This document shows, one piece after another, positions 446-15,360 of a stretch of 22,305 bases of DNA. This stretch comes from a virus, in IMG/VR virus record IMGVR_UViG_3300032050_000883, positions 1-22,305 of that record; one strand, given 5' to 3'. The notes beneath the pieces are model-generated. The model ran no database searches. It was given only the letters and a program-made list of their open reading frames with translations, and was not told where the DNA came from. The first letter of the stretch is position 1. Each line of letters starts with the position of its first letter. The translations under genes and the position numbers were made by a program.

Positions 446-1990
446 GTGCAGATAATTGATAACAAGGCGCTGCTAATTACAGCGCCGAACGCACATACTA
501 TACCCCAATACATTACAAAGAGCGCCGTGGTTGAAGGTGGAGCCGTAGCCGTACACTGGGGGCTACACGAGGCTACGCGCTTAGCTCAGCTTGGTTATGA
601 CGGCGTGCCGTCCCCTATGCTCCGCGACTACCAGTGGACTGGTAAGTATGCGCCGTTCGACCACCAGAAAGAGACAGCTTCGTTCTTGTCTATCCGCAAA
701 CGCGCCTTCTGCTTCAACGAGCAGGGCACAGGCAAGACGGCTAGCGTCATATGGACGGCTGACTACCTGATGAAGAAGGGCAAGATTAAGCGCGTACTGG
801 TGCTATGCCCATTGTCGATTATGAAGTCGGCTTGGCAGCGCGACCTATTCACCTTCGCTATGCACCGCTCGTGCAGCGTTGCGCACGGTGCAGCCCCACA
901 ACGCAAGAAGATTATCGAAGCAGGGGCAGAGTTCGTCATCATTAACTTCGACGGTCTAGCTATCGTCAAGGACGAGATAATTGCAGGTGGCTTCGACCTT
1001 ATCGTGGTGGACGAGGCGAACGCATATAAGAACGTGCAGACCAACCGCTGGAAGATTTTTAGCCAGATTGTGAACCTCACTGACCCACGGCTTTGGATGA
1101 TGACAGGTACACCCGCTGCGCAGTCTCCCATAGATGCGTATGGCTTAGCTAAGCTGGTTAACCCAGAAGGTTGCCCTAAATACTACACCGAGTTCCGAGC
1201 TTCTATCATGCACAAGGTGACCCACTTTAAATGGGCACCGAAACCACACGCAGCTGAGTACGTGCATAACATATTGCAGCCAGCCATCCGGTTCGAAAAG
1301 AAAGACTGCTTGGACCTACCCGAAGTTACGCACGTGTCGCGTGACGCACCGCTGACAACACAGCAGAGCAAGTACTACAAGATGCTCAAGGACCAGCTGC
1401 TGATTGAGACGGGCGGCGAGGAAGTCAGTGCGGTCAACGCAGCTACGCAGATAAACAAGCTGCTGCAGATAAGTGGAGGCGCGGTCTATACGGATACTGG
1501 CGAGGTGCTGGAGTTCGATGTGTCTAACCGGGTTAACGTCGTACTCGAAGTCATAGAGGAGGCCAGCAACAAGGTGCTGGTCTTCGTGCCGTTCACGCAC
1601 ACTATTGAGATACTTCGCGCTAGGCTGGAGAAGGAAGGCATCTCGTGTGGCGTCATCAACGGCAAAGTATCACTGAATAAGCGCAGCGACATCATCGAGC
1701 GGTTCCAGACGAGCAAAGACCCACATGTGCTTATCATCCAGCCACAGGCTGCATCGCACGGTCTGACTCTAACGGAGGCGGATACAATCATCTGGTATGC
1801 GCCAGTAACCAGCGTGGAAACATACTTGCAGGCTAACGCCCGTATCGACCGTCCCGGCCAGAAGAACGCCATGACCATCGTGCATATCAAGGGCAGTCCG
1901 GTAGAGGAGCGGCTGTATAGTATGCTCCAGAATAATATCACCAACCACAAAAAACTTATTGACTTGTATAAGGAAGTTATGGAAATATAG
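446..1990 (+). CDS. SNF2-family (superfamily 2) DNA helicase/translocase
   Basis: A 514-residue ATPase with both RecA-like lobes. Visible motifs with residue positions from GTG 446: motif I NEQGTGKT (91-98), motif II DEAN (189-192), motif III TGTPAAQSP (from 220), a C-terminal lobe with VLVFVPFTHTIEILRARL and VINGKVSLNKRSDIIERF, motif V ASHGLTLTEADTIIW, and motif VI QANARIDRPGQKN (462-474). The Q..xRIDRPGQ signature is characteristic of SNF2 proteins, which move along duplex DNA rather than acting as classical replicative helicases. Motif II ends in Asn instead of the usual His, a mild deviation. SNF2-like helicases are common in phage replication or recombination modules and may remodel forks or displace proteins. 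It lies between the HNH-like gene and a promoter-like gap. The family call is firm; the cellular task is inference. Confidence 0.9.
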   Translation: MQIIDNKALLITAPNAHTIPQYITKSAVVEGGAVAVHWGLHEATRLAQLGYDGVPSPMLRDYQWTGKYAPFDHQKETASFLSIRKRAFCFNEQGTGKTASVIWTADYLMKKGKIKRVLVLCPLSIMKSAWQRDLFTFAMHRSCSVAHGAAPQRKKIIEAGAEFVIINFDGLAIVKDEIIAGGFDLIVVDEANAYKNVQTNRWKIFSQIVNLTDPRLWMMTGTPAAQSPIDAYGLAKLVNPEGCPKYYTEFRASIMHKVTHFKWAPKPHAAEYVHNILQPAIRFEKKDCLDLPEVTHVSRDAPLTTQQSKYYKMLKDQLLIETGGEEVSAVNAATQINKLLQISGGAVYTDTGEVLEFDVSNRVNVVLEVIEEASNKVLVFVPFTHTIEILRARLEKEGISCGVINGKVSLNKRSDIIERFQTSKDPHVLIIQPQAASHGLTLTEADTIIWYAPVTSVETYLQANARIDRPGQKNAMTIVHIKGSPVEERLYSMLQNNITNHKKLIDLYKEVMEI

Positions 1991-1993
1991 TAT

Positions 1994-2006
1994 TTGACAC
2001 TGTCAA
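1994..2006. promoter_or_regulatory. Perfect 13-bp palindrome, candidate operator over a -35 box
   Basis: TTGACA-C-TGTCAA is a perfect inverted repeat with a one-base centre. Its left arm equals the sigma70 -35 consensus. It lies in the 75-base gap between the helicase stop (1990) and the next start (2066). A dimeric repressor or activator site is plausible. The small helix-turn-helix protein at 3402-3644 is a possible binder, which is inference only. Confidence 0.4.
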
Positions 2007-2032
2007 AGATTAGTGGTAGCTAACAATATAAC
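1994..2032 (+). promoter_or_regulatory. Candidate promoter for the second half of the replication genes
   Basis: The 1991-2065 gap is AT-rich and contains TTGACA at 1994-1999. With a 17-base spacer the -10 would be TAGCTA (2017-2022), which is poor. A better -10, TATAAC, is at 2027-2032, but the consensus -35 is then too far away. One of these could be used, or a phage-modified polymerase may be involved. The signal is suggestive, not strong. Confidence 0.35.
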
Positions 2033-2065
2033 AAACCACAATCACAACCAAGAAGGAGCAAGCAT

Positions 2066-2467
2066 ATGGATGATTTACCCGTAGACCAGCTTGTGCGCGT
2101 CTATCGCAAGATACGTGATGTCGTGCAGGCTAAGGAAGACGCCCACAAAGCCGAGATTACAGAGCTTAAGGGGCAGATGGACCTAGTTAGCGCCAAGCTA
2201 CTTGAGGTCTGCAACACACAGAACGTGGACAGCCTACGTACCAAAGAAGGTACGATAACTAGGCGCGCTGCTACCCGCTACTGGACGAGCGATTGGGAGT
2301 CCATGTACAAGTTTCTTAAGGAGAATGATGTGATGCATCTTCTCGAACAGCGCATCCACAATGGCAACATGCGTAATTACCTAGAGGAGAACCCCGATAG
2401 TCTACCTGTCGGCCTCAATGCAGATACTAAGTATGTGCTTTCGGTTCGCAAACCAACAACCAAGTGA
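2066..2467 (+). CDS. Conserved phage hypothetical protein (replication module)
   Basis: A 133-residue soluble protein starting at ATG 2066, with AAGGAG at 2053-2058 seven bases upstream. Residues about 5-50 form a charged, likely coiled-coil helix (YRKIRDVVQAKEDAHKAEI and onward). The second half holds a motif pattern I recognise from many phage replication or recombination clusters: NVDSLRTKEGTITRR, then RYWTSDWESMYKFLKEN, LLEQRIHNGNMRNYLEENP and PVGLNADTKYVLSVRK. Its biochemical function is not known to me. Its place before a putative single-stranded DNA binding protein suggests an accessory in DNA metabolism. It is the first gene after the promoter-like gap, and its stop overlaps the region just before the next start. 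No catalytic motif or membrane segment is visible. Confidence 0.75.
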   Translation: MDDLPVDQLVRVYRKIRDVVQAKEDAHKAEITELKGQMDLVSAKLLEVCNTQNVDSLRTKEGTITRRAATRYWTSDWESMYKFLKENDVMHLLEQRIHNGNMRNYLEENPDSLPVGLNADTKYVLSVRKPTTK

Positions 2468-3402: not shown

Positions 3403-3644
3403 TGAGTAGCGGTTATAGCTTACGGATACAGGAGGCAAACGCCAAGGCGAGCAAACACAAGTTGGGTGTTCGCCTAGGTAGGCTCTGCATTGCGCAGGAC
3501 ATTCCTGTAGCCGTAGTCGCTAAGTGTACAGGCGTAACAAGGCAGACAGTATATAATTGGTTCTGTGGGACTTCCATCCCACAGGGCACTCCCGCCGCCC
3601 TTATAGCTGTATACATGGCAAGTCTGGAGAGTTCTGTCTCCTAA
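3402..3644 (+). CDS. Small helix-turn-helix DNA-binding protein
   Basis: 80 residues from ATG 3402, whose A is the last base of the preceding TAA (TAATG), so translation is probably coupled. A longer in-frame start exists upstream but would overlap the acidic tail of the previous gene and add only an Arg-run artefact. Residues about 20-60 form a Cro/XRE-like helix-turn-helix: LGVRLGRLCIAQ (helix 1), PVAVVAKCTGV (helix 2), TRQTVYNWFCGTSIP (recognition helix and turn). It is most likely a phage transcriptional regulator, or a DNA-binding accessory of replication. The palindrome at 1994-2006 is one possible target. Unusually for such a small protein, it sits between the SSB-like gene and the primase rather than at a divergent control region. 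The coding DNA contains a perfect 8-bp hairpin at 3563-3584. Confidence 0.7.
   Translation: MSSGYSLRIQEANAKASKHKLGVRLGRLCIAQDIPVAVVAKCTGVTRQTVYNWFCGTSIPQGTPAALIAVYMASLESSVS
3563..3584 (+). repeat. Perfect inverted repeat (8-bp stem, 6-base loop) within the HTH gene
   Basis: CTGTGGGA (3563-3570) pairs with TCCCACAG (3577-3584) around loop CTTCCA. Two flanking T-G wobbles could extend it. It has no T-tract after it, so it is not an intrinsic terminator. It may be an mRNA stability or processing element, or chance. Confidence 0.45.
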
Positions 3645-3707: not shown

Positions 3708-6542
3708 GTGGCGGAGGAATTTGACCTTTTATCAGCGGTGCAGCCTCAAGAGGGTTGGTACGCTATCGTCGGGCTTAGCCCAGACAATAAACAGCAGGAG
3801 TTAGTAGAGACCCGCGAGGAAGCGGACGAATGGGCAAAGACCTTCCTCAACCAAGGTAAGAACGTATTCTTTGGTGTAGCTAAGTACACAGACGGTAAGA
3901 GCCGCAAGAAAGAGAACGTGAAGGCGCTTAAGTCGCTCTGGCTCGACATAGACTGCGGACCAGAGAAGGATTACGATACACAGGACGAAGGCTTCACGGC
4001 TCTTCGTGCGTTCTGTAAGACCGTAGGTATGCCCAAGCCTATCGTGGTTAACTCGGGGCGCGGTTTGCACGTATACTGGCCGCTAACTGAAGAAGTTACA
4101 CGCGAAGAATGGGAGCCAGTGTGCGCACGGTTGAAAGAAGTCTGCGCCACCAAGGGGCTACGTGTAGATAACAGCTGCTTTGAGGCAGCGCGCATCCTGC
4201 GTATTCCCGGCACTTTTAACTTTAAGGGTGATGACCCACTGCGCGTAGAGGTTCTGGTGGTCGGCAAGCCGACGTCCATGGCAGACATACGTGACATACT
4301 TGGCGTTAAAGAGACTAAGCCGTCGCCCCTAGGCGACCTTCCGGTGTTCGCACCTAGCCCGTTATCCAAAGTCATACAGGCTAGCATGGAGTCCAGCTTC
4401 GCCAAGATTATGAACCGTGGGGACAAAGGCTGCGCACAGCTTAACTCCTGTTACGAGGACCGCGAGCATATATCCGAGCCACGTTGGTTCTCGGCGTTGT
4501 CAATCGCAAAGTTCTGTAAGGACCGTAATAGGGCGATACACAAGCTATCTGCAGACCATCCGGACTACGACCCTGACAAGGTTGAGCAGAAGATAGGACA
4601 CATACTCGGGCCGCACACCTGCGCAGAGTTCGAGAAGAACAATCCCGGCGGATGCGGAAAGTGTCCACACGCTGGCAAGATACGCTCACCTATTACGCTA
4701 GGCAAAGAGCTGAAGGAGGCAACTCCGGAGGACAACGTAGTCATAGAAGAGACGAAGCTGGGGGCGATAAAGTTCCACATACCCGAGTTTCCCTTCCCCT
4801 ACGTGCGTGGCAAGCATGGGGGCGTATGGCGCAAGGTTGCGCCCAAGGACGAGGAAGAAGGCGTCGAAGACGTTGCGCTTGTGTATCCGTACGACATCTA
4901 CGTGGCCAAGCGGATGGATGACCCTGTTGAGGGTGGCGTAGCCCTTATCCGACTGCACACACCGCAGGACGGCGTCAAAGAGTTCACGGTGCACAATTCC
5001 AAGATGGCGGACGGCACCGAGCTGAAGAAGCTTCTCGCTTCTAAGCACGTGATGTTGAGTTCGAAGACCGACTACGCATATCTAGTCGATTACATAGTTA
5101 AATCAGTGGCACAGTTTTTTCATAACGAGAAGGTAGAGCAAATGCGAAATCAATTTGGATGGGTCGATAACGACAGTAAGTTTATCATTGGCGACCGTGA
5201 GATAAGTGCGGAGGGGACGTACCATAGTCCACCATCTTCCGTTACCAAGGTAGTAGCGGAGCACATGACAGCTAAGGGCACACTGGATAAGTGGCGCGAA
5301 GTGTTCGACCTGTACGGACGTCCGGGCCTTGAGGGGCATGCGTTTGCAGCAGCCACCGCCTTCGGTGCGCCTCTCTTGCGCTTCTCCGGCCAGCGTGGGG
5401 CGATTATCAACGTGGTGCACCCTAAGTCGGGCACGGGTAAGACGACAGCCCTACAGATGGCTAACAGCGTGTATGGTGACCCTGTGGCGCTATGCGCGAA
5501 GAAGGACGACACGTTCAACTCGAAGGTGTTCAAGATAGGCGTGTTCTGCAACCTGCATATCAGCTTCGACGAAATGTCCAACACTGAACCTAAGCAGTTG
5601 AGTGAGCTTGCCTACCTGATTACACAGGGCACCGGCAAGGACCGCATGAAGGCGTCCGCCAACGAGCTTCGGGCAAACCTGACGTCGTGGCAGACCATAG
5701 CACTGTGCTCGTCTAACCACTCGTTCTACGAGAAGCTGGAAATCAATAAGGGTTCGCCTGATGGTGAAACCATGCGCATCATCGAGTACAGCATCGACTA
5801 TTCTGACGCGATTGACATCGAGTATGGCAAGAAGATGTTCGACCACCAGCTGCTCGAGAACTACGGGCATGCAGGTGACATCTACGCACGGTACCTGATT
5901 ACGCACTATGATGAGGTGAAGGCGCTCTATGCTACGGTCCAACAGCGCATCGACACCAAGCTTAAGCTAACACAGCGTGAGCGTTTCTGGTCGGCAACAG
6001 CGGCTGCTAACATAACGGGCATCTACATTGCCCTACATCTGGGCCTATGTAACTGGGACATTGCTGCCATTTTCAAGTGGACGTGCAAGATGGTGCTCAA
6101 CCTACGCAACACCATGACCCCACCGCCTGAAGGCGACCAGCAGATACTGGGTGAGTTTATGAACGCCCGTCTCGGGAACATTCTTATCGTCAACGACGGG
6201 GTAGACCGTCGCAGCAAGATGGCGGAAGTACCGGCACTAGAACCAAAGCAGGAGCTTATGATACGCTACGAGCCTGACACAGCTAAGGTGTACATAACTG
6301 CTAGCTCGTTCCGTGAGTATTGTGGTGCACGTAACATTGCTTACCGCTCTACGATTAACGCTATGAAGGCCAAGGGCCTGTACCTCGACGCGGAAAACAA
6401 GCGCATGTCCAAGGGCATGAAAGTCAACACGGTGCCAGTGCAGTCGCTAATCTTCGACGCTAACCACCCAGACTTCAGCGGCATTACGGACCTGTTTAAT
6501 AACGTAGTGTCTGCCGCGAAGCCGGACTCCGACGAAGAGTGA
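3708..6542 (+). CDS. Primase-helicase fusion (AEP-type primase plus DUF927/SF3-like ATPase)
   Basis: A 944-residue replication protein, GTG start at 3708 with GGAG at 3694-3697. The N-terminal third looks like an archaeo-eukaryotic primase of the RepB/Prim-Pol type: the metal-binding LWLDIDC gives D80 and D82, SGRGLHVYW (116-124) is the nucleotide-binding SG..H.Y motif, and ARILRIPGTFNFK (161-173) is the third motif. A Cys/His cluster follows (C305, C316, C319, H321), perhaps a zinc or Fe-S site. The C-terminal half is a DUF927/superfamily 3-like helicase with Walker A PKSGTGKT (572-579), Walker B FDEM (620-623) and a CSSN sensor-like segment near 666-669. Such fusions prime and unwind DNA at the phage origin. 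No polymerase gene is in the window; it probably lies left of it. This is the central replication enzyme of the + strand operon. Confidence 0.88.
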   Translation: MAEEFDLLSAVQPQEGWYAIVGLSPDNKQQELVETREEADEWAKTFLNQGKNVFFGVAKYTDGKSRKKENVKALKSLWLDIDCGPEKDYDTQDEGFTALRAFCKTVGMPKPIVVNSGRGLHVYWPLTEEVTREEWEPVCARLKEVCATKGLRVDNSCFEAARILRIPGTFNFKGDDPLRVEVLVVGKPTSMADIRDILGVKETKPSPLGDLPVFAPSPLSKVIQASMESSFAKIMNRGDKGCAQLNSCYEDREHISEPRWFSALSIAKFCKDRNRAIHKLSADHPDYDPDKVEQKIGHILGPHTCAEFEKNNPGGCGKCPHAGKIRSPITLGKELKEATPEDNVVIEETKLGAIKFHIPEFPFPYVRGKHGGVWRKVAPKDEEEGVEDVALVYPYDIYVAKRMDDPVEGGVALIRLHTPQDGVKEFTVHNSKMADGTELKKLLASKHVMLSSKTDYAYLVDYIVKSVAQFFHNEKVEQMRNQFGWVDNDSKFIIGDREISAEGTYHSPPSSVTKVVAEHMTAKGTLDKWREVFDLYGRPGLEGHAFAAATAFGAPLLRFSGQRGAIINVVHPKSGTGKTTALQMANSVYGDPVALCAKKDDTFNSKVFKIGVFCNLHISFDEMSNTEPKQLSELAYLITQGTGKDRMKASANELRANLTSWQTIALCSSNHSFYEKLEINKGSPDGETMRIIEYSIDYSDAIDIEYGKKMFDHQLLENYGHAGDIYARYLITHYDEVKALYATVQQRIDTKLKLTQRERFWSATAAANITGIYIALHLGLCNWDIAAIFKWTCKMVLNLRNTMTPPPEGDQQILGEFMNARLGNILIVNDGVDRRSKMAEVPALEPKQELMIRYEPDTAKVYITASSFREYCGARNIAYRSTINAMKAKGLYLDAENKRMSKGMKVNTVPVQSLIFDANHPDFSGITDLFNNVVSAAKPDSDEE

Positions 6543-6784: not shown

Positions 6785-6819
6785 CCCCCGCTGGCGCTAC
6801 TCCCCGGCGGGGGTTTTTT
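6785..6819 (+). terminator. Strong intrinsic terminator of the replication operon
   Basis: CCCCCGCTGG (6785-6794) pairs with CCGGCGGGGG (6804-6813), a 10-bp stem with one T-G wobble and a 9-base loop, followed directly by six T (6814-6819). The T run overlaps the TAA stop (complement of 6818-6820) of the opposing giant gene. Read leftwards, the hairpin is not followed by a T-tract, so it terminates rightward transcription only. Confidence 0.9.
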
Positions 6820-9800
6820 ATGGGCGGAACATCTCCGCCATGCCGATGTCTTTCCCAGCAGTCTTCTTCTCAAGCCGCATACCCTGCACAGTGCGCTCCC
6901 GAACATCTGCACGACCCTTGAGTGACCGCATGATGCTCTCTTCGGTAATAATAAAGCTAGGGTCTGGATACGTGCGGTTGAATGGAATAATCTCGTCAGT
7001 GATAAACTCTTGCAGCTGTGCCTTAGAGGTAATCTCACCCTCACGTATCTTCCTATCCAAAGTGGATAGCAGCTGGGTCTTTTCTGCTTTTATCTTCTTG
7101 TCGTTTTTACCGCGAGTAATGTAGTAGTCCTGCCAACGAGCAAGGCGTAGTGGGCGGAAGCCCGATATCGTGCGGAACGTATCGAGTGCAGAGATGTCGT
7201 CCTTATCAATGATAACGTCGCCCTTACGGCTAACAACGCCTTCAGCTTCTCCCTGCCCTGCAGCGACCCATGACCGGACAAACGCTGGGGCTAGCTTCTT
7301 TACGGCACCGTACATATCGCCTTCGGCAAAGTTGTCCTTCGCATTGAACGCCTGAATTAGCATCTGCCCACCTGCTACGTTAGCCAGCAGTGTTTTTATT
7401 ACGGTGTCCCCAGTAGAGTCGCCTGTGACAGCTTCACGGAACCACATATTCTTGAGGTCAAGCGACGTACGGCTAGATATTTCTGTGTTCGACAAAGCGC
7501 CAACTGGACCGTGTATAAGAATATCGGCCATCGACACGTCGCCAATCATAGGCTCACCGAACTTGTCCATTATCCATGCACGGAACATGATGTCGGAGTC
7601 GTAGGCGACACGCGGGTCGAGACCCATAAGCTTGCGCACGTCCTCATCGTCTTCTTCATCAAAGCTCTCGGACAGCGCCAATGCCATGACCGTGTATAGA
7701 GGCATGCCGAGAAGGCCACCGAATACGCCAGCCATCATCAACACGCCGCCTAGCTCCTTCATAGCGCCAGCACGTGCAGCTTTTGCTTCTGGTGAAGCTC
7801 CGGGGTACAGCCCACGACCGATATCCCGCATCGCCCCCACTAGGAACTTGGTCTGCAGGATAGGGTGCATCTTGAAGAGGAACAGGGCACGGGTCCAGTC
7901 TTTCTTCATAATGCTAGACCGCTCCCAGTTGGAGTAGTCGCCTAGTGTGTCCCGCACTGTGTCTAGCGCAGTTGTAACGGCCTTATCGAACACTACCTTT
8001 TCGGCTTCGGCGCTAGTATCAGTATTCTTCGCCGCCTCTGCCTTGTACGCCAACTCAAACGCCATGAAGTAGGCCGCTTGACGCGAGATGTTTTCCAGAC
8101 CTTGGAACATAACACCCATGGCCTTACCAGTTAAGGCACGTGCCTCAACAGCGGTGCGCGCCGCACCCGTACGGTGCCTCTTAGCCGTTTCCCGCTCATT
8201 CTGTATTAGAGTATCCTGCACGGTCTCAAGCACGTTGCGCTCCATGCCTGCCGCCAGTGCCCTACGTAAAAGCTTACCCTCGTCAGTATTGGCGTTAATT
8301 AGCTTCGAGCTATTGATATTGGGCATCAGCACATCGAGCTGGTCACCAGCACCGGCCAGACCAGTGCGCGTAGTCTGCACCTTGGCTTTACCCAGTGTGT
8401 TCCATATCTTCATATACTTCAGCCACATACGTGTGCCTTCTGCATACCCGTAGTCACGCCACAGGCGCGGCACCACACGTATCGGTATGGAAGTAAGCTG
8501 CAGCATGGCTGTCGCTGGCGCTGTCAGGTAGTAGAAGTATGACGCACGGTTAAGGGCGTTTATAAACGAACTCTGCGGGCTTGGATTTATCTCGTCCTCG
8601 GCCCGTGTTTCAAGCTCGTCTATAACCGAGTTATACTTCGCCTTGAGCGTTGCATCGCGGTCAGATACGTTATCCCGGGCTTCCTCGGTCTTCAGGCGAA
8701 TGTCCCCGGCATAGGCCAGCTTGCTTAGCTGGTTAGCATAGTTACTAGCTTGCGACGCGAACTGCTGCAGCAAGTCCTGCTGGAAGCCGACTACCTCTTG
8801 AGCATGCATGAACCGGCGGCGCACTGACCGTTCTGGCGTAGATAGCAACCATGTCTGGTAGATACTGTCCGTAAGGTCTTTGAAACTATTAGCGTCGATA
8901 CCCTTGGTGCCCGCAAACTCAGCCTTAGCCTTGCTAACTAGGTCGAATATCTTCTGCATCATTTGGTCGTCAGACTTCATGTTCTCCTGCAGCTGCGCGA
9001 TATCGTACCCTACGGTTATTACACTGCTGTCTTCGGGGTTCACACCTAAGCGCTTAGCTATCGCCTTCTGCGCGTCCTGCATGTCCTTAGCGGAGTAGAG
9101 CTGGTAGAACTCCCGCTCCCGCGAGCCGTCCTTGGCAGCTGCTACACGCACGTAGTACTGGCCTTCGCGCATGAACGGGAAATAGTCTTTGGTGAACAGG
9201 CTGGAGTCGAGGTCGTGGAATATATCTCCGCTCTTCTTAGCCTCATCCGGGTTCATCACTTCGCGCATCATGTCTGCACGTAGGTCGCGCAGGCGCTTAG
9301 CTTCTGCCTCACCAGCAATAGTCGAAATGCGACCATCTAGTAGGGCAAGCTCTGCTTCGAACATGTCTTTGTAGTAGGCGCGCATCTCAAGGTACAGCTT
9401 GTGGCCATTCTTGAGTTTACCCAACTCATCCCACAGCTTGTGCACGTCACGGATACGACGGGTAAGTTCTGCAACCTGCCCAGTCTGGGCGCTAGTCTTC
9501 TGGCGGTCGATAGCAGTCTTAGATAGGTCCGCTACAAGCTTACGCATGTCGTCAGACATTTTTACCTTGTCGCCCTTTACCCCTACTACTTCCTTACCCT
9601 GCATAGTCAGAGCCTTCATCTCGGCTATTATGCGGGCGGCTAGCGCTTTGTCGTTTGAGTTCTTCAGTATGCGGGCTTCGATTTCCTTCATCGCAGGGTG
9701 ATTAGCCAGCGCCTCATCAGCAGACTTGAACTCGTCAGGGGAGTACTCGTTTATACGGGCAGTGCTCTGCAGTGATGCCAGCACTTGCTTTTTGTCTGTC

Positions 9801-12800
9801 AGAAGAAACTCATCCAGCTCACGACCTATATCTTCGGCGGCTTTGATAATGTTGGCCTTCATAGCCACCATCTTCTGCACCAGCGTGTCAATCTCACGTA
9901 TGCTAGGTATGTCTGGGCCAAACCAGTTTAGGATGCCAGACGTTGGTATAGTCTTCAGTATAGCCTTTAGCGTAGGTGGACCCATACCGTCGGAGTTGTC
10001 TTTGAACGCATTAAGGAAGGCGCTGAACTTACGCCCCTGCACAGCTTTCCCTACACCGTCAGCTATGCCGTTAGTGGACGTAGACTTCTGCGTGCGGCGC
10101 AGACCATCGCTCATGGAGGCCGACGTTTCTTCCAGCGCTTCTTTATGCTCAGGGGTGGTCTTAGGCCGGGAGTATTTTGTAGCGCGTGATGTGGTGGTGT
10201 CCCACCCACTGATATACCGCATACCCTTTACGAGCGTGCTTTCCTGTGGGCCGTTTACGACGCGCTCGTGACCTGCGGCCAGTATAGCCTCTACATCCGC
10301 ATCGCTGATTGCTAGGCTGATACCCAGCTTACGTGCAAAGTTACGGATAATAGCCGCAATACGGCTAAGCATATTTGGCCGGATTTGTCCGGTCTCGGAC
10401 ATTTCAGCTAGGACTTCTTCTACTGCACGGGCGACCCGGTCAGTGTCTTTTGCATATGCCTCTGGGTTAGCAGCTAGCCAAGCATCAGTCTTGGTCCGTA
10501 TGTTGCCATTGCCTTTGTATAGCGCGGTCAAAGCGCCGTCTAGTTCGCCACGGAACAGCTTCTCAAGGCCAACGTGACCAAGGGCTTCATGGAACAGCAC
10601 CGCCTTAGCACGCTCTACGGACTCAAGGTTGTCGGCAATCAGATACACTGTGCCGTCAGGAGCCACGAAGCCTTCTGCATTAGTGGCGTTGTCCTGCATC
10701 ACAGCCCGGCGTATCTTAGCGTCAGCTATGTCGTTAACTGACTGTACCACTTCAACTACGGGTGGACCTTTCCACACCGACACGATAGCATCTACCGCTG
10801 CGCGGGCCTTTGACACGTCGGTCTTGGCTTGGCCCGGCTGCGTTTCACCCCTACGGTACTTCGACACACGGCTTTCAGCTAGGTCGATTTTAGCATCGCG
10901 TAGCTCCTTTTGGTCACCTTCCTGCAACGCTTCCTTAATGCGTATCTTGGCACCAAGCTGCTCGTCCTTGCGCATCTCTGACATGGAACGTAGCCGCGAC
11001 CGGATTGGGTTCAGCATGCGATTGTTTACGAGCTTAGCCAGCTTCTCGTTGGCGACCACCAACTCTGCTTCCGCTGCCTTGGCTTCAACGCCTGTGGTGT
11101 TGCGGAACTTGGACATTGCTGCCCGTGCTTCTTCTTCAGCCTTGGCGATGTTGTCCTGTGGGCGACCGAACTTGTCGTACGCAGCGGGACGCTCCAGCTG
11201 GCGGATAAGCTCTGTACGCTGGTTGTTGTCTATCTCGCCACGCTCACGCGCAGCATCAATCTCTGCAGTAAGCTCTTGCACCATCGACGTAGCTACAGTG
11301 GGTTTTGCGGAGTCCGTATCTGGTATAGCCGCAGCGGGAGCAACGTATGGCATGAGGTCCATAGCCTGCTCTTCGAAGTCCTTCAGGGTATCTGCAGCTG
11401 CAAACACCTCACCGTCTGGACCGACAACCCTATATGGCTTCGGGCTAGTCTCATCAACCTGCACACTATACGCTTCGTTAGCAGGGTTAGCACGACGTAT
11501 GGCGTCCTCAATGTTCTTTACGAACTGGGCCTTGTACTGCTCGTCCTTGGCTGCGCGCTCTTGCTGCAGCCTATCAAACTCGTCGGCCTGCGCCTGACGC
11601 TCGGCTTCACGCTGCTCCGGTGCGAGCGCACCCTGCTCCAGCTTGCGCTGCTGGATTTCCTCGAACTTGTCGAGGCGGTTTTCTTCCTGTGTAGGCAGTG
11701 CACCAAACAGACCTTCTTGGCCTGCGGCTTCCACAGTGCTGGCACTGGGTGGACGTCCCCTACGCGAGTATTTGATACCCGTGGGGGAAGCTGCTGCTGC
11801 GTTTAGGCGGTCAACGGCTTCCGCTTCGTCAATTCCGTATTTGTCAGCAAATGCACGGACGCCATCGTCGTTTTGCAGGGTAGCCTCAGCAAATGCTGGC
11901 GTAATAGTGGGCGCAGCGGAACGCGCAGGTGCAGCTTCTGCTTTTGGTGGGGGAGTATAGTCAAACCGACTAACGGCATTACGTATGCGGTCGATGGTAT
12001 ATTCAGGTTTATCCTTCTTACTGATGTCTAACCCTAGACCACGTGCAATCGCGTTTATCCTAGGCGTATTAAAAGGCACACCACCAGCATCAACTGCAGA
12101 GACAAGGTCAATAGCAGACTGCTCTATAGGAGATAGCTTACGGCGCTGTGGCGCAGCTTCTGCTTTTGGTGCAGCCTGCTCAGCAAACAACGGCTCAATA
12201 GTAGAAACTTCGTTACCAACAAACTGCGAGAACGCAGCCATGCGCTCGGGTGCAATAACCTTGTCGATGCCGGTGGTCTTCATGGCGTCAACGTATTGAC
12301 GCGCTATGCTCTCTACGAGTGGTGCCGGTGCTACCTGCCCCTTATCAACAAACGCAGTGTACTCATCTATCTGAGTATTTATGTCTGGTATGGTGCTAGC
12401 AGGCTCGACTCCAGCAGCTTCAGCCTCACGCGCCTGCTGCATGGCGGCTTGCTCTTCGGTGTCAACCGGAGGCAGTGTGGAAAGGTCAGGACCTCCGCCA
12501 ACATCAATATCTTCTTGGGCTAGCCGTTCGGCACGTGCTTTTTCAAGTTCTGCAGCTTGCTTATCAATAGCGGCCTTCTGCTTCACCATGGTGTCTACAA
12601 CCTGCTGGGCTTTCTCCAGCGGGAACCCGCGCCTAGTGAACCGCTCAACTGCAGCGGACACGGCTTCTTCAGTCGGCTCTGGCGGCAGAGCTTCAAGCTC
12701 TTGTGCAATCTCTTTCGTGAGCATCTCACGGTTTTCCGCACGCGTTTCACGCGCACCACCGTAGCCACCTAGGAATAGGGACGCGATGCCTTCAGACGCG

Positions 12801-13765
12801 GCCTGACCGGCTACACCCTTCCACGTATCTACATCGAAGCCTTCGCGCTGCAACGCTAGGTTCTGGGCCAACTGTTCTTGCCCACCTTGTACAGCTTCCG
12901 GTACAGCTTCCGTTACCGCACCTTTAGCGGCTCCGCCTAATACACTGCGCCTTGCGCCGACTTCTACGGCTTCACGCGCTGCCACCTTAGCGGCAACATT
13001 CTTAGCGGCGTTTGCACCTATGGTACGGGCAATCTGTGGAGCAAAACCAGTAGCCGAAGCGAGCGCGCCTATTGCACCACCAAGTGCAATCTGGTCCATA
13101 TTCTTGCCGCCGTACTCCTGCGCCCGCTCAGCTGCGGCTTCGGCGTCTTTCTCAGACGCACCGCTCTTTACAAACTCGTCGTATACGGCGTCGTACACAG
13201 CACCTTTTATGGTACCCACGCCTGACGCCGTGCCAAGCCCGGCCATAGTAGCTATAGGCACAACTCCGGTACCGCCAGTGGCAACACCTGCGGCGACAAA
13301 AGGCACTGCTGAACCTGCTACGCTAGCAATGTTTTCCAAAGGTGCATAAGTGAACGCACGAGCAGCAGCCTTAACTTCTTCCCACACGCCCTTACCTTCG
13401 GCGTCCTTCTGGATTTTGCGGGCAATTTCTAAATCTTCACGAGACCCAGCAGATTTCAAGGCGGCGGCGGCTTTAGACACGTAATCAGCTGCATCGGACA
13501 CAGCATTATCAGCACCAAAGACATCTGAGATAGACTTAACTGTACCGCTTAAACCTTCGGCTACACTCAAAGGTATGTCTGCAACAGGCGCAATCAACCC
13601 GCCGACTAGCGGGATTTTCTCAATAGAGCTAGCACCCTGCTTGGACTTACCACCTTGGTAGTACTCTTTGGCGATATATGATATAGCATCGCGCTCGGTG
13701 GCATTCTTCGGAGCGTTGACAGTGTAGCTCCTGCCGTCCGGGCCTTTTACAGTGTATGAAGGCAC
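6818..13765 (-). CDS. Giant phage polyvalent virion protein, probable ejection protein with zincin-like domain
   Basis: 2315 residues, last gene of the - strand operon; GTG start with AGGAG 8 bases upstream. The first residues SYTVKGPDGRSYTVNAP are a common N-terminus of phage giant proteins. Residues 145-191 form a long Gly/Ala hydrophobic stretch (with another near 227-240), and a strong membrane-like segment lies near 2003-2032 (GGVLMMAGVFGGLLGMPLYT). Long charged helices occur around 350-420 and 690-980. A zincin-like motif HEALGH at 1059-1064 is followed by EEVLAE at 1116-1121. KYSR recurs at 665 and 1197, apparently at domain boundaries. From about 1960 (LFLFKMHPILQTKFL) to GFRPLRLARWQDYY near the end it resembles the LPD38-like C-terminal region of phage polyvalent proteins, from memory. 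The likely role is injection into the host envelope with the genome, like T7 gp16. No RNA polymerase motifs were seen. Confidence 0.8.
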   Translation of the reverse strand: MPSYTVKGPDGRSYTVNAPKNATERDAISYIAKEYYQGGKSKQGASSIEKIPLVGGLIAPVADIPLSVAEGLSGTVKSISDVFGADNAVSDAADYVSKAAAALKSAGSREDLEIARKIQKDAEGKGVWEEVKAAARAFTYAPLENIASVAGSAVPFVAAGVATGGTGVVPIATMAGLGTASGVGTIKGAVYDAVYDEFVKSGASEKDAEAAAERAQEYGGKNMDQIALGGAIGALASATGFAPQIARTIGANAAKNVAAKVAAREAVEVGARRSVLGGAAKGAVTEAVPEAVQGGQEQLAQNLALQREGFDVDTWKGVAGQAASEGIASLFLGGYGGARETRAENREMLTKEIAQELEALPPEPTEEAVSAAVERFTRRGFPLEKAQQVVDTMVKQKAAIDKQAAELEKARAERLAQEDIDVGGGPDLSTLPPVDTEEQAAMQQAREAEAAGVEPASTIPDINTQIDEYTAFVDKGQVAPAPLVESIARQYVDAMKTTGIDKVIAPERMAAFSQFVGNEVSTIEPLFAEQAAPKAEAAPQRRKLSPIEQSAIDLVSAVDAGGVPFNTPRINAIARGLGLDISKKDKPEYTIDRIRNAVSRFDYTPPPKAEAAPARSAAPTITPAFAEATLQNDDGVRAFADKYGIDEAEAVDRLNAAAASPTGIKYSRRGRPPSASTVEAAGQEGLFGALPTQEENRLDKFEEIQQRKLEQGALAPEQREAERQAQADEFDRLQQERAAKDEQYKAQFVKNIEDAIRRANPANEAYSVQVDETSPKPYRVVGPDGEVFAAADTLKDFEEQAMDLMPYVAPAAAIPDTDSAKPTVATSMVQELTAEIDAARERGEIDNNQRTELIRQLERPAAYDKFGRPQDNIAKAEEEARAAMSKFRNTTGVEAKAAEAELVVANEKLAKLVNNRMLNPIRSRLRSMSEMRKDEQLGAKIRIKEALQEGDQKELRDAKIDLAESRVSKYRRGETQPGQAKTDVSKARAAVDAIVSVWKGPPVVEVVQSVNDIADAKIRRAVMQDNATNAEGFVAPDGTVYLIADNLESVERAKAVLFHEALGHVGLEKLFRGELDGALTALYKGNGNIRTKTDAWLAANPEAYAKDTDRVARAVEEVLAEMSETGQIRPNMLSRIAAIIRNFARKLGISLAISDADVEAILAAGHERVVNGPQESTLVKGMRYISGWDTTTSRATKYSRPKTTPEHKEALEETSASMSDGLRRTQKSTSTNGIADGVGKAVQGRKFSAFLNAFKDNSDGMGPPTLKAILKTIPTSGILNWFGPDIPSIREIDTLVQKMVAMKANIIKAAEDIGRELDEFLLTDKKQVLASLQSTARINEYSPDEFKSADEALANHPAMKEIEARILKNSNDKALAARIIAEMKALTMQGKEVVGVKGDKVKMSDDMRKLVADLSKTAIDRQKTSAQTGQVAELTRRIRDVHKLWDELGKLKNGHKLYLEMRAYYKDMFEAELALLDGRISTIAGEAEAKRLRDLRADMMREVMNPDEAKKSGDIFHDLDSSLFTKDYFPFMREGQYYVRVAAAKDGSREREFYQLYSAKDMQDAQKAIAKRLGVNPEDSSVITVGYDIAQLQENMKSDDQMMQKIFDLVSKAKAEFAGTKGIDANSFKDLTDSIYQTWLLSTPERSVRRRFMHAQEVVGFQQDLLQQFASQASNYANQLSKLAYAGDIRLKTEEARDNVSDRDATLKAKYNSVIDELETRAEDEINPSPQSSFINALNRASYFYYLTAPATAMLQLTSIPIRVVPRLWRDYGYAEGTRMWLKYMKIWNTLGKAKVQTTRTGLAGAGDQLDVLMPNINSSKLINANTDEGKLLRRALAAGMERNVLETVQDTLIQNERETAKRHRTGAARTAVEARALTGKAMGVMFQGLENISRQAAYFMAFELAYKAEAAKNTDTSAEAEKVVFDKAVTTALDTVRDTLGDYSNWERSSIMKKDWTRALFLFKMHPILQTKFLVGAMRDIGRGLYPGASPEAKAARAGAMKELGGVLMMAGVFGGLLGMPLYTVMALALSESFDEEDDEDVRKLMGLDPRVAYDSDIMFRAWIMDKFGEPMIGDVSMADILIHGPVGALSNTEISSRTSLDLKNMWFREAVTGDSTGDTVIKTLLANVAGGQMLIQAFNAKDNFAEGDMYGAVKKLAPAFVRSWVAAGQGEAEGVVSRKGDVIIDKDDISALDTFRTISGFRPLRLARWQDYYITRGKNDKKIKAEKTQLLSTLDRKIREGEITSKAQLQEFITDEIIPFNRTYPDPSFIITEESIMRSLKGRADVRERTVQGMRLEKKTAGKDIGMAEMFRP
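12889..12912. repeat. Perfect 12-bp tandem duplication in the giant gene
   Basis: GTACAGCTTCCG occurs twice in a row. In the giant protein it encodes the repeated EAVPEAV near residues 285-292, an in-frame slippage-type duplication. It is a minor feature. Confidence 0.7.
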
Positions 13766-13773
13766 CTTGGGTA

Positions 13774-13778
13774 CTCCT
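13774..13778 (-). promoter_or_regulatory. Ribosome binding site of the giant gene (GTG start)
   Basis: On the - strand, AGGAG lies 8 bases before GTG 13765 and overlaps the TAG stop of the transglycosylase gene (13777-13779). It decides the start of the giant protein and implies close translational linkage of the two proteins. Confidence 0.7.
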
Positions 13779-15360
13779 AGTTACGCGTTGCTGAAAAACC
13801 TTCAAATGGGTCTTTTTCACCGGCACTGCCGCCTGTTTCTCCATCTAGGTTTAGCGAACCTTCCATACCGGTGCCACCAAATTTTGCGTTTATCTTTTCC
13901 ATAGCTATTTTTGCTGCGCCGTAAGCAAACTGCCTAGCTTTGTTTTCTGGATATCCCTTGTCTATAAAGTCTTTGTAGAACGTTTCCACGTAGGCTTCAA
14001 AACTATTTGGTTTGACACCTTCTTTAGCCGTAGCAGCAATCGTCCTAGCAATTAGCTCGTTAGCCGCAATATTTTCCCTGCTGGTAAGCTCACGTTCAAA
14101 CTGCGATGCCTTTAGGCCAGTATTAGACATATCTACAGCGACACCAAGTATCTCTAGGTTTTCCCTACGGGTCTTGTCGTTCATCTGACCCATGATATCG
14201 AGAGCGCGGTCCTTAAGTGCCTTGCGCTCCTTCTTATCTGCACGTGCACCCGGCATAGCTGCGGCAGCGGCTTCACCCACTGCTTGCAGTAGATACGGAG
14301 ACTTAGAGCTGGCCATGTTGAAGCCTATTTCTGCTAACGTCTGGTACATAGAGTCCTTACGCTGCTCTTCGTAATACTCGTCGGACGCCATCTCTTCAGC
14401 GCGGGCCAGACGCTTAGCTTCAACTTCCCGCTGTTTTTCCGTAGGACCAAACTGACGCATCAGGTTTTGGTATTCATCTGCGACTGAACGAGAACGCCCT
14501 TCAGCAGTCCCAAAATCGCGTTCGGGCATTTTGGGTGTGGCTTTACCGCCTAGGATATTGCCAATATATTTTTTCGTTTCAGCAGGCAGCTGCTTAGGGT
14601 CACCACCCTTCTTCAGCCACTTATCGACGTTACCCGGTCCCCAATTATACGCAGCTAGTGCAGTAGCCTCATCGCCGTAACGGCGATACATGGCATCAAG
14701 GTAGTCACGACCAGCACGGCGGTTTTCCGCTTCACTATCGTCCCGCATAGGCGTCACACCAAAACCGGGGTCCTTCATAGTGCCGGGCATAAGTTGCATA
14801 ACGCCACGCGCACCTGCGCTGCTCACGGCATCCTGCTTACCACCGCTTTCCCAATACTCTACGTCGTCATAGAGGTTTGCCATGCCGCCCTTACCGCCAC
14901 TAGCAAACGCAACCATACCGCCACCTGCATAACTGCCGTTATCAGGCTCGTCGAATATAGCGTCAGGCACAGGTAGGGTAGTTAGACCACCCATAGCCAT
15001 ACCCTGTGGAGGTGGGGCCATGCCCATATCTTGAGGAGGCGGAGCCATAGGCATCTGTGGCGGAGCGCCCATACCTTGAGGCGGCATAGGCATACCTTGG
15101 GGTGGAGGACCCATACCCTGTTGTGGGGCAGGGGGAGCGCCTTGTGGTTGCCCACCACCAAGAACCTGCTGCGCTACAGTCGGCTGCTGCGCAGCTTCCA
15201 TAACCTGTGCGGAACGCATCCGGTCAATAAACATACCTGCAAGCACGGCTGCAGTAGGGTCAACGATACCCATTTGCGCAGCCTGCGCAATCTTCTGCTT
15301 ATTACCGGCATATTCCTTAGCGATATTTTCCGGCGCTTGGATACTGAATGGTTTAGCCAA
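13777..15360 (-). CDS. Virion-associated lytic transglycosylase
   Basis: A 527-residue protein with an SLT (soluble lytic transglycosylase, lysozyme-like) domain at about 160-275. EYWESGGKQDAVSSAGARG contains the catalytic Glu (E171) in the classical ESGG context, followed by GVMQLMPGT and, later, AAYNWGPGNVDKWL, all family hallmarks. The enzyme cleaves the MurNAc-GlcNAc bond of peptidoglycan. The N-terminus has a Pro/Gly/Met-rich repeat (PPQGM units, about 70-125), then Gly-rich ALPVP-like and FASGGKGG segments typical of virion structural proteins. The C-terminal half is helical, with a charged stretch near 295-345. Placed beside the giant protein and far from any holin, it is probably carried in the virion to open the cell wall during DNA entry rather than for lysis. 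It starts with the rare TTG. Confidence 0.88.
   Translation of the reverse strand: MAKPFSIQAPENIAKEYAGNKQKIAQAAQMGIVDPTAAVLAGMFIDRMRSAQVMEAAQQPTVAQQVLGGGQPQGAPPAPQQGMGPPPQGMPMPPQGMGAPPQMPMAPPPQDMGMAPPPQGMAMGGLTTLPVPDAIFDEPDNGSYAGGGMVAFASGGKGGMANLYDDVEYWESGGKQDAVSSAGARGVMQLMPGTMKDPGFGVTPMRDDSEAENRRAGRDYLDAMYRRYGDEATALAAYNWGPGNVDKWLKKGGDPKQLPAETKKYIGNILGGKATPKMPERDFGTAEGRSRSVADEYQNLMRQFGPTEKQREVEAKRLARAEEMASDEYYEEQRKDSMYQTLAEIGFNMASSKSPYLLQAVGEAAAAAMPGARADKKERKALKDRALDIMGQMNDKTRRENLEILGVAVDMSNTGLKASQFERELTSRENIAANELIARTIAATAKEGVKPNSFEAYVETFYKDFIDKGYPENKARQFAYGAAKIAMEKINAKFGGTGMEGSLNLDGETGGSAGEKDPFEGFSATRN

Follow-up and report, generated by a model that had tools for sequence, protein, structure and literature searches.

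The window analysed here, a viral record, spans 22,305 bases. Its minus strand carries an open frame for a giant polyvalent-type protein (Table 1) that matches the NCBIfam family NF032893 (E 2.1e-67) and the DarB-like PHROG 10089 (E 4.6e-36). The NF032893 score exceeds the family's own cut-off and places the protein among the PLxRFG, or tail-700, proteins, and the PLxRFG domain forms the C-terminal third of the giant. Against Pfam, the whole protein matched no family at E ≤ 1. A predicted zincin-like metallopeptidase domain follows a long N-terminal part and precedes the C-terminal PLxRFG domain. The products of the minus-strand genes that precede the giant include a protein matching a virion structural family, a 956-residue protein with tape-measure matches and, just upstream, an SLT-domain protein that is likely an internal or ejection protein. 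This gene order suggests a virion/ejection layout. Since the giant gene closes the virion gene run, its product is most likely packaged in the particle and ejected. Genes for an SNF2-type helicase and a DUF927 primase/helicase-like protein are convergent with this run.

Table 1. Features of the window, with residue numbers of the giant protein where they apply
Feature	Position in window	Residues	Strand	Basis
Giant polyvalent-type ('DarB-like' / PLxRFG) protein	6818..13765	2315 aa, GTG start	-	Open frame, NF032893, phrog_10089
PLxRFG ('tail-700') domain	6860..9184	1528-2302	-	NF032893, 228.1 bits, cut-off 100
Predicted zincin-like metallopeptidase domain	10256..10816	about 984-1170	-	AlphaFold2 model, pLDDT 87.9, pTM 0.86; 107 distinct related domains
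EEVLAE, E1117 as predicted third zinc ligand	10403..10420	1116-1121	-	Motif search; E1117 in 107/107; model helix 1110-1125
HEALGH, two predicted zinc-binding His and general-base Glu	10574..10591	1059-1064	-	Motif search; kept in 106-107 of 107
Three-strand stretch preceding the active-site helix	10637..10756	1004-1007, 1032-1034, 1040-1043	-	DSSP on model
Gene with SLT transglycosylase domain, just upstream of the giant	13777..15360		-	PF01464, E 9.5e-18; phrog_2013, phrog_342
SNF2-type helicase and DUF927 primase/helicase-like genes	374-1990 and 3708-6542		+	Gene matches

The motif pair that an earlier note had read from the sequence, HEALGH followed by EEVLAE at a distance of 57 residues from start to start, was found exactly where that note had placed it, with FVAPDGTVYLIADNL just upstream. 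Each motif is the sole match of the giant to its pattern, namely HE plus two or three residues plus H for the first and EE...E for the second. When the giant sequence was shuffled 5000 times, HE...H occurred in 0.38% of the shuffles and HE...H followed by EE...E at 53-63 residues (start to start) in none, a rough guide only because the motif had been picked after being seen. Conservation is a stronger test. Among 107 distinct related domains, H1059 is kept in 106, E1060 in 107, H1064 in 106, E1116 in 102 and E1117 in 107. This set comprises 112 distinct segments from a profile search minus five that end before the second helix, and an 80% identity filter reduces it to 74. As many as 93 of the 107 domains stem from loci caught by a DNA pattern in which H1059, E1060, G1063 and H1064 are fixed and E1117 is free. 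Hence, the 14 domains found by similarity provide the fairer test for the first motif; they retain H1059, E1060, H1064 and E1117 in all 14 and E1116 in 13. Several of these domains are closely related to the window, and the H-E pair formed part of one of the six peptide patterns that retrieved them. Loss of the site residues among homologues, the outcome named beforehand as speaking against a zincin site, was thus looked for and did not occur.

AlphaFold2 was run on 58 of the 70 aligned rows, and confidence in the resulting model was low at about model residues 161-180, the stretch beyond the E1117 helix. The model starts with an N-terminal helix (984-995), and after the three strands it has helices at 1050-1085 with HEALGH, at 1087-1099 and at 1110-1125 with E1117. 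Zincin-like metallopeptidases (MPTases) of polyvalent proteins are described in passages of Iyer et al. 2017 (PMC5512222) by the same layout. Accordingly arranged in the model are three predicted strands, assumed to form a single sheet, with an N-terminal helix, the HEXXH or HEXXXH motif on the first C-terminal helix, and the Glu on the second, here with helix 1087-1099 intervening between the HE and Glu helices. The window domain is also part of a multidomain protein of a mobile element, as seen from the PLxRFG domain of the giant and from further domains in its relatives.

Comparison with known structures gave a less specific picture. With the domain model, Foldseek found no significant row in the PDB, the top one being the tubulin carboxypeptidase MATCAP at E 0.21. 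Among the VIA-align matches listed, 27 entries reached Z of at least 5, comprising 20 anthrax lethal or edema factor chains, five Pro-Pro endopeptidases and two MATCAP entries. The best among these listed matches was lethal factor (Z 7.0, rmsd 4.2, 152 aligned), which is middling by the tool's own yardstick, and it was accompanied by a Pro-Pro endopeptidase (Z 5.8, rmsd 4.6, 142) and MATCAP (Z 5.5, rmsd 4.5, 123). Three of the 20 listed lethal/edema factor chains align in their N-terminal region, which is non-catalytic. Pro-Pro endopeptidases and lethal factor, as the top VIA-align rows (Z 5.0-7.0), share about 10% identity with the window domain and differ from it as secreted proteins with an HExxH motif. 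MATCAP/TMCP tubulin carboxypeptidases likewise have HExxxH and use a Glu for the third ligand, according to passages of PMC10499314, but are eukaryotic exopeptidases with no sequence relation shown to the window domain. By sequence, the single domain retrieved one PDB row (E 0.068), which is a ribosomal protein, and the profile 19 rows with a best E of 0.29 and no peptidase among their names. In BFVD, 13 viral models matched at E ≤ 0.001, and four of these are named large polyvalent proteins.

Zincin-like MPTases are the commonest domain of polyvalent proteins, fall into 12 clades and include a HEXXXH set, as stated in passages of PMC5512222. With this set, the window domain shares the motif, the strand and helix layout, the Glu on the second helix and the setting in giant phage proteins; nothing decisive differs from what these passages describe, the likeness being one of description and not of clade alignment. 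Judged by sequence and model together, the domain belongs to this already described HEXXXH kind of polyvalent-protein metallopeptidase. Its identity as a zincin is well supported and very probable, and conservation and the predicted layout agree with H1059, H1064 and E1117 as the likely ligands. The link to phage polyvalent proteins drawn in the earlier note is borne out by the published layout and by the BFVD matches.

Family models cover this kind of domain sparsely. For the 58 domain members searched at E ≤ 0.1, no Pfam family matched more than five and no NCBIfam family more than two. In contrast, PHROG 14770 matched 57 of the 58, but it is a 3427-position family of whole giants with unassigned function. 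An hhalign comparison with PF18818 (MPTase-PolyVal) gave a probability of 5.4% against six rows, with both motifs aligned, and EE[LI]xAE occurs in all five distinct PF18818 sequences inspected (seven places found). A weak match to Pfam DUF6782, a 'putative metallopeptidase' (13.9 bits versus a cut-off of 27), was set aside, and a match of residues 1115-1177 to the 'excisionase' phrog_1840 was taken as chance.

The earlier note had likened the motif pair to dipeptidyl peptidase III (DPP III) of family M49, on the grounds that HExxxH is the hallmark of that family and that its motifs are likewise 57 residues apart. The first ground stands in part: passages of PMC10499314 call HExxxH characteristic of M49 and yet report it for tubulin carboxypeptidases too, and PMC5512222, in the passages on MPTases, describes it for polyvalent proteins. 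HExxGH and EExxA[ED], which M49 and the window domain have in common, do not discriminate for M49 because other sets share them. The spacing of 57 does hold for the DPP III chain 3t6b (human), where EECRAE begins at 507 and HELLGH, or a mutated version of it, at 450, as well as for the DPP III chain 5yfb; it is 56 in 3csk, the yeast enzyme. It is 27-31 in all 22 bacterial M49 proteins examined (27-29 in the 18 with HExxGH, 30-31 in the four with HExxH), each of which comes from a different genome among 40 in the class of a Parabacteroides genome. The phage domains show spacings of 50-85, with 53 as the commonest value (44 of 107) and 57 in just 18. Given the bacterial values and the rarity of 57 among the phage domains, we rejected the spacing as evidence, and the shared value looks like a coincidence.

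Profile tests point the same way. The M49 model PF03571 had no match in the giant at E ≤ 1 and no candidate in the window record, and hhalign of the phage profile against M49 gave probabilities of 1.5% for the whole domain and 3.7% for the catalytic part, in an alignment that reached only the HE motif. Moreover, the M49 model has 548 positions, as compared with about 190 residues predicted for the phage domain. M49, a family with a two-lobed fold, is absent from the best 50 VIA-align rows listed, although such a list excludes no family. On the profile tests and the bacterial spacing we rejected M49 membership, and a phage-borne DPP III that is a true M49 member is extremely improbable. As a separate observation, four short M49-profile matches (L172-L175, 547-574 aa) have HEVAH, an HExxH form, instead of HExxGH, which suggests that both forms of the motif exist in M49 as well.

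Relatives of the domain are found in phages, viral contigs and plasmids. The domain alone retrieved 21 viral-contig loci and nine phage records at E ≤ 0.1, which include Achromobacter phage CF418P1, Methanosarcina virus MetMV and Bacteroides phages, and the DNA pattern for LFHE[AV]xGHxGL-type sites added 115 further stretches. A relative's domain matched ten plasmid records (H38-H47); several of these are annotated with PLxRFG, LPD38, LPD23 or LPD5, and five are Acinetobacter plasmids of about 55 kb. Scanning genome_contigs with the window domain gave no relatives among 70 candidate stretches, and a profile search of one bacterial class found the domain in 2 of 198 genomes. A 598-residue bacterial frame (L180, G104:C236:64358-64579) with HEILGH and AEEVFAFVAE perhaps has the same domain in another setting. 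Three chosen relatives scanned against Pfam carry ART-PolyVal, InPase and methylase domains (L037), LPD1, LPD5 and LPD37 (L072), or helicase domains only (L059); the first two thus have domains that are typical of polyvalent proteins. One giant (L150:2-9604(+)) has two copies of the domain, at residues of about 275-444 and 2482-2657, with HEVVGH at one site and RESVAN at the second. Two relatives bear annotations that look wrong, an OppA-like oligopeptide-binding protein in Rollin (L196:8333-14887) and a putative portal in CF418P1 (L022:1861-9915).

The PLxRFG region of the window matches 25 phage records, and the zincin profile matched 7 of 12 giants examined from among these; as the giants of Parlo and 1F273_PE002 had been picked for their zincin match, counting only those chosen through their PLxRFG match gives 5 of 10. 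As in the window, these seven giants have the putative zincin ahead of a similar C-terminal region, with 246-390 residues between the end of the zincin and the start of the PLxRFG match (348 in the window), and their phages infect Ochrobactrum, Klebsiella, Serratia, Vibrio and Pseudomonas. They differ from the window protein in that six of the seven are longer and five have the HExxH form (POI1126, ZX1, SopranoGao, Parlo and Rollin), the HExxxH form being present in douglas 12A4 and 1F273_PE002. No notable profile match was seen in the other five of the 12, namely PBC5, Mwe-JY07, Atu_ph08, Pavtok and Itty13, the last being a C-terminal piece only. In the giants of Mwe-JY07 and Pavtok, an HExxH of uncertain assignment occurs near 3792-3798.

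Both forms of the motif thus occur at the same place in related giants. A profile built from five HExxH copies gave 99.6% (E 2.8e-24) in a comparison with the main alignment, which is not independent because a related profile had served to find most of these copies. In a quick tree of 70 rows, the HExxH label needs four changes, at least two of them forced by well-supported branches; 33 of the 67 inner branches are weak and several end branches are long, and with the over-sampling of HExxxH by the DNA pattern the number of switches is a rough one. We tentatively suggest, with some doubt, that the zinc motif may have changed several times between HExxH and HExxxH within one virion-borne zincin family. 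If so, the catalytic helix would tolerate gain or loss of a residue, and HExxxH would be a form easily reached and no mark of M49. Three viral-contig giants contain both forms, HExxH in the first copy and HExxxH in the second (L073:1-5682(-), L078:1-3702(-) and L121:2-5656(+)), and under the same assumption these proteins would hold two differently tuned proteases.

The idea that the particle carries a protease gains support from phage JC1. Its DarB-like giant gp69 has HEAFH at 3465 and, in single-sequence searches, matched the zincin profile with an i-Evalue of 9.7e-8 and window residues 1020-1227 by blastp with E 3.8e-6. Passages of PMC9144972 report 51 unique peptides of gp69 from virions purified on CsCl and do not mention if the protein is intact. 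Thus, a giant bearing this kind of domain does occur in particles, and by extension the window's protein may be carried in the same way. As gp69 had no match to NF032893 at E ≤ 0.01, this virion evidence rests on the homology of the zincin.

For the window's protein, we favour, as somewhat probable, an HEXXXH-kind zincin in a packaged giant that acts in cis on its own polypeptide or on partner proteins. In the proposed mechanism, H1059, H1064 and E1117 would be the ligands of a zinc ion and E1060 the base that activates water, as conservation and the predicted fold suggest, and the zincin might then cut the giant itself or partner proteins, either at assembly or after entry. The domain is probably a working protease. 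Purely structural or regulatory zinc binding in a fold with no protease activity is a quite improbable alternative; it would fit the L150 copy in which the site reads RESVAN and the rest of the domain persists, but the general-base Glu is present in 107 of 107 domains and the ligands in 106-107, and a structural site has no need of a Glu base.

That the target of such a protease would be its own giant or partner phage proteins has about an even chance. A precedent for processing is DdrB of phage P1, which is cut before packaging, and a counter-example is the virion RNA polymerase of N4, which has an MPTase and yet is packaged uncut (both from passages of PMC5512222). DdrB and DarB are listed as P1 virion proteins in passages of PMC9024508, which do not mention DdrB cutting. 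Alternatively, the zincin could be an effector that is ejected with the DNA and cuts a host protein, for example one of defence or transcription. Passages of PMC5512222 propose that polyvalent proteins enter together with the DNA, and name MPTases as possible host-directed effectors; the ADP-ribosyltransferase and methylase domains of the relative L037, and the detection of the domain in 7 of 12 PLxRFG giants and not in every one, would be in agreement with such a function. We nevertheless regard it as unlikely, since the domain keeps one fixed place, 246-390 residues ahead of PLxRFG, in seven giants across five host genera, and such constancy across hosts fits an internal role better than one that is specific to the host.

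The motifs of the window domain strikingly match those of a well-studied peptidase, and convergence is the best reading of this likeness. The domain can instead be placed in a widespread phage family that, in the searches of 58 members, had no covering Pfam or NCBIfam model. Many giants now named 'DarB-like' or PLxRFG can hence be annotated as carrying a likely protease, and H1059, E1060, H1064 and E1117 are the residues with which to ask whether these giants process themselves.
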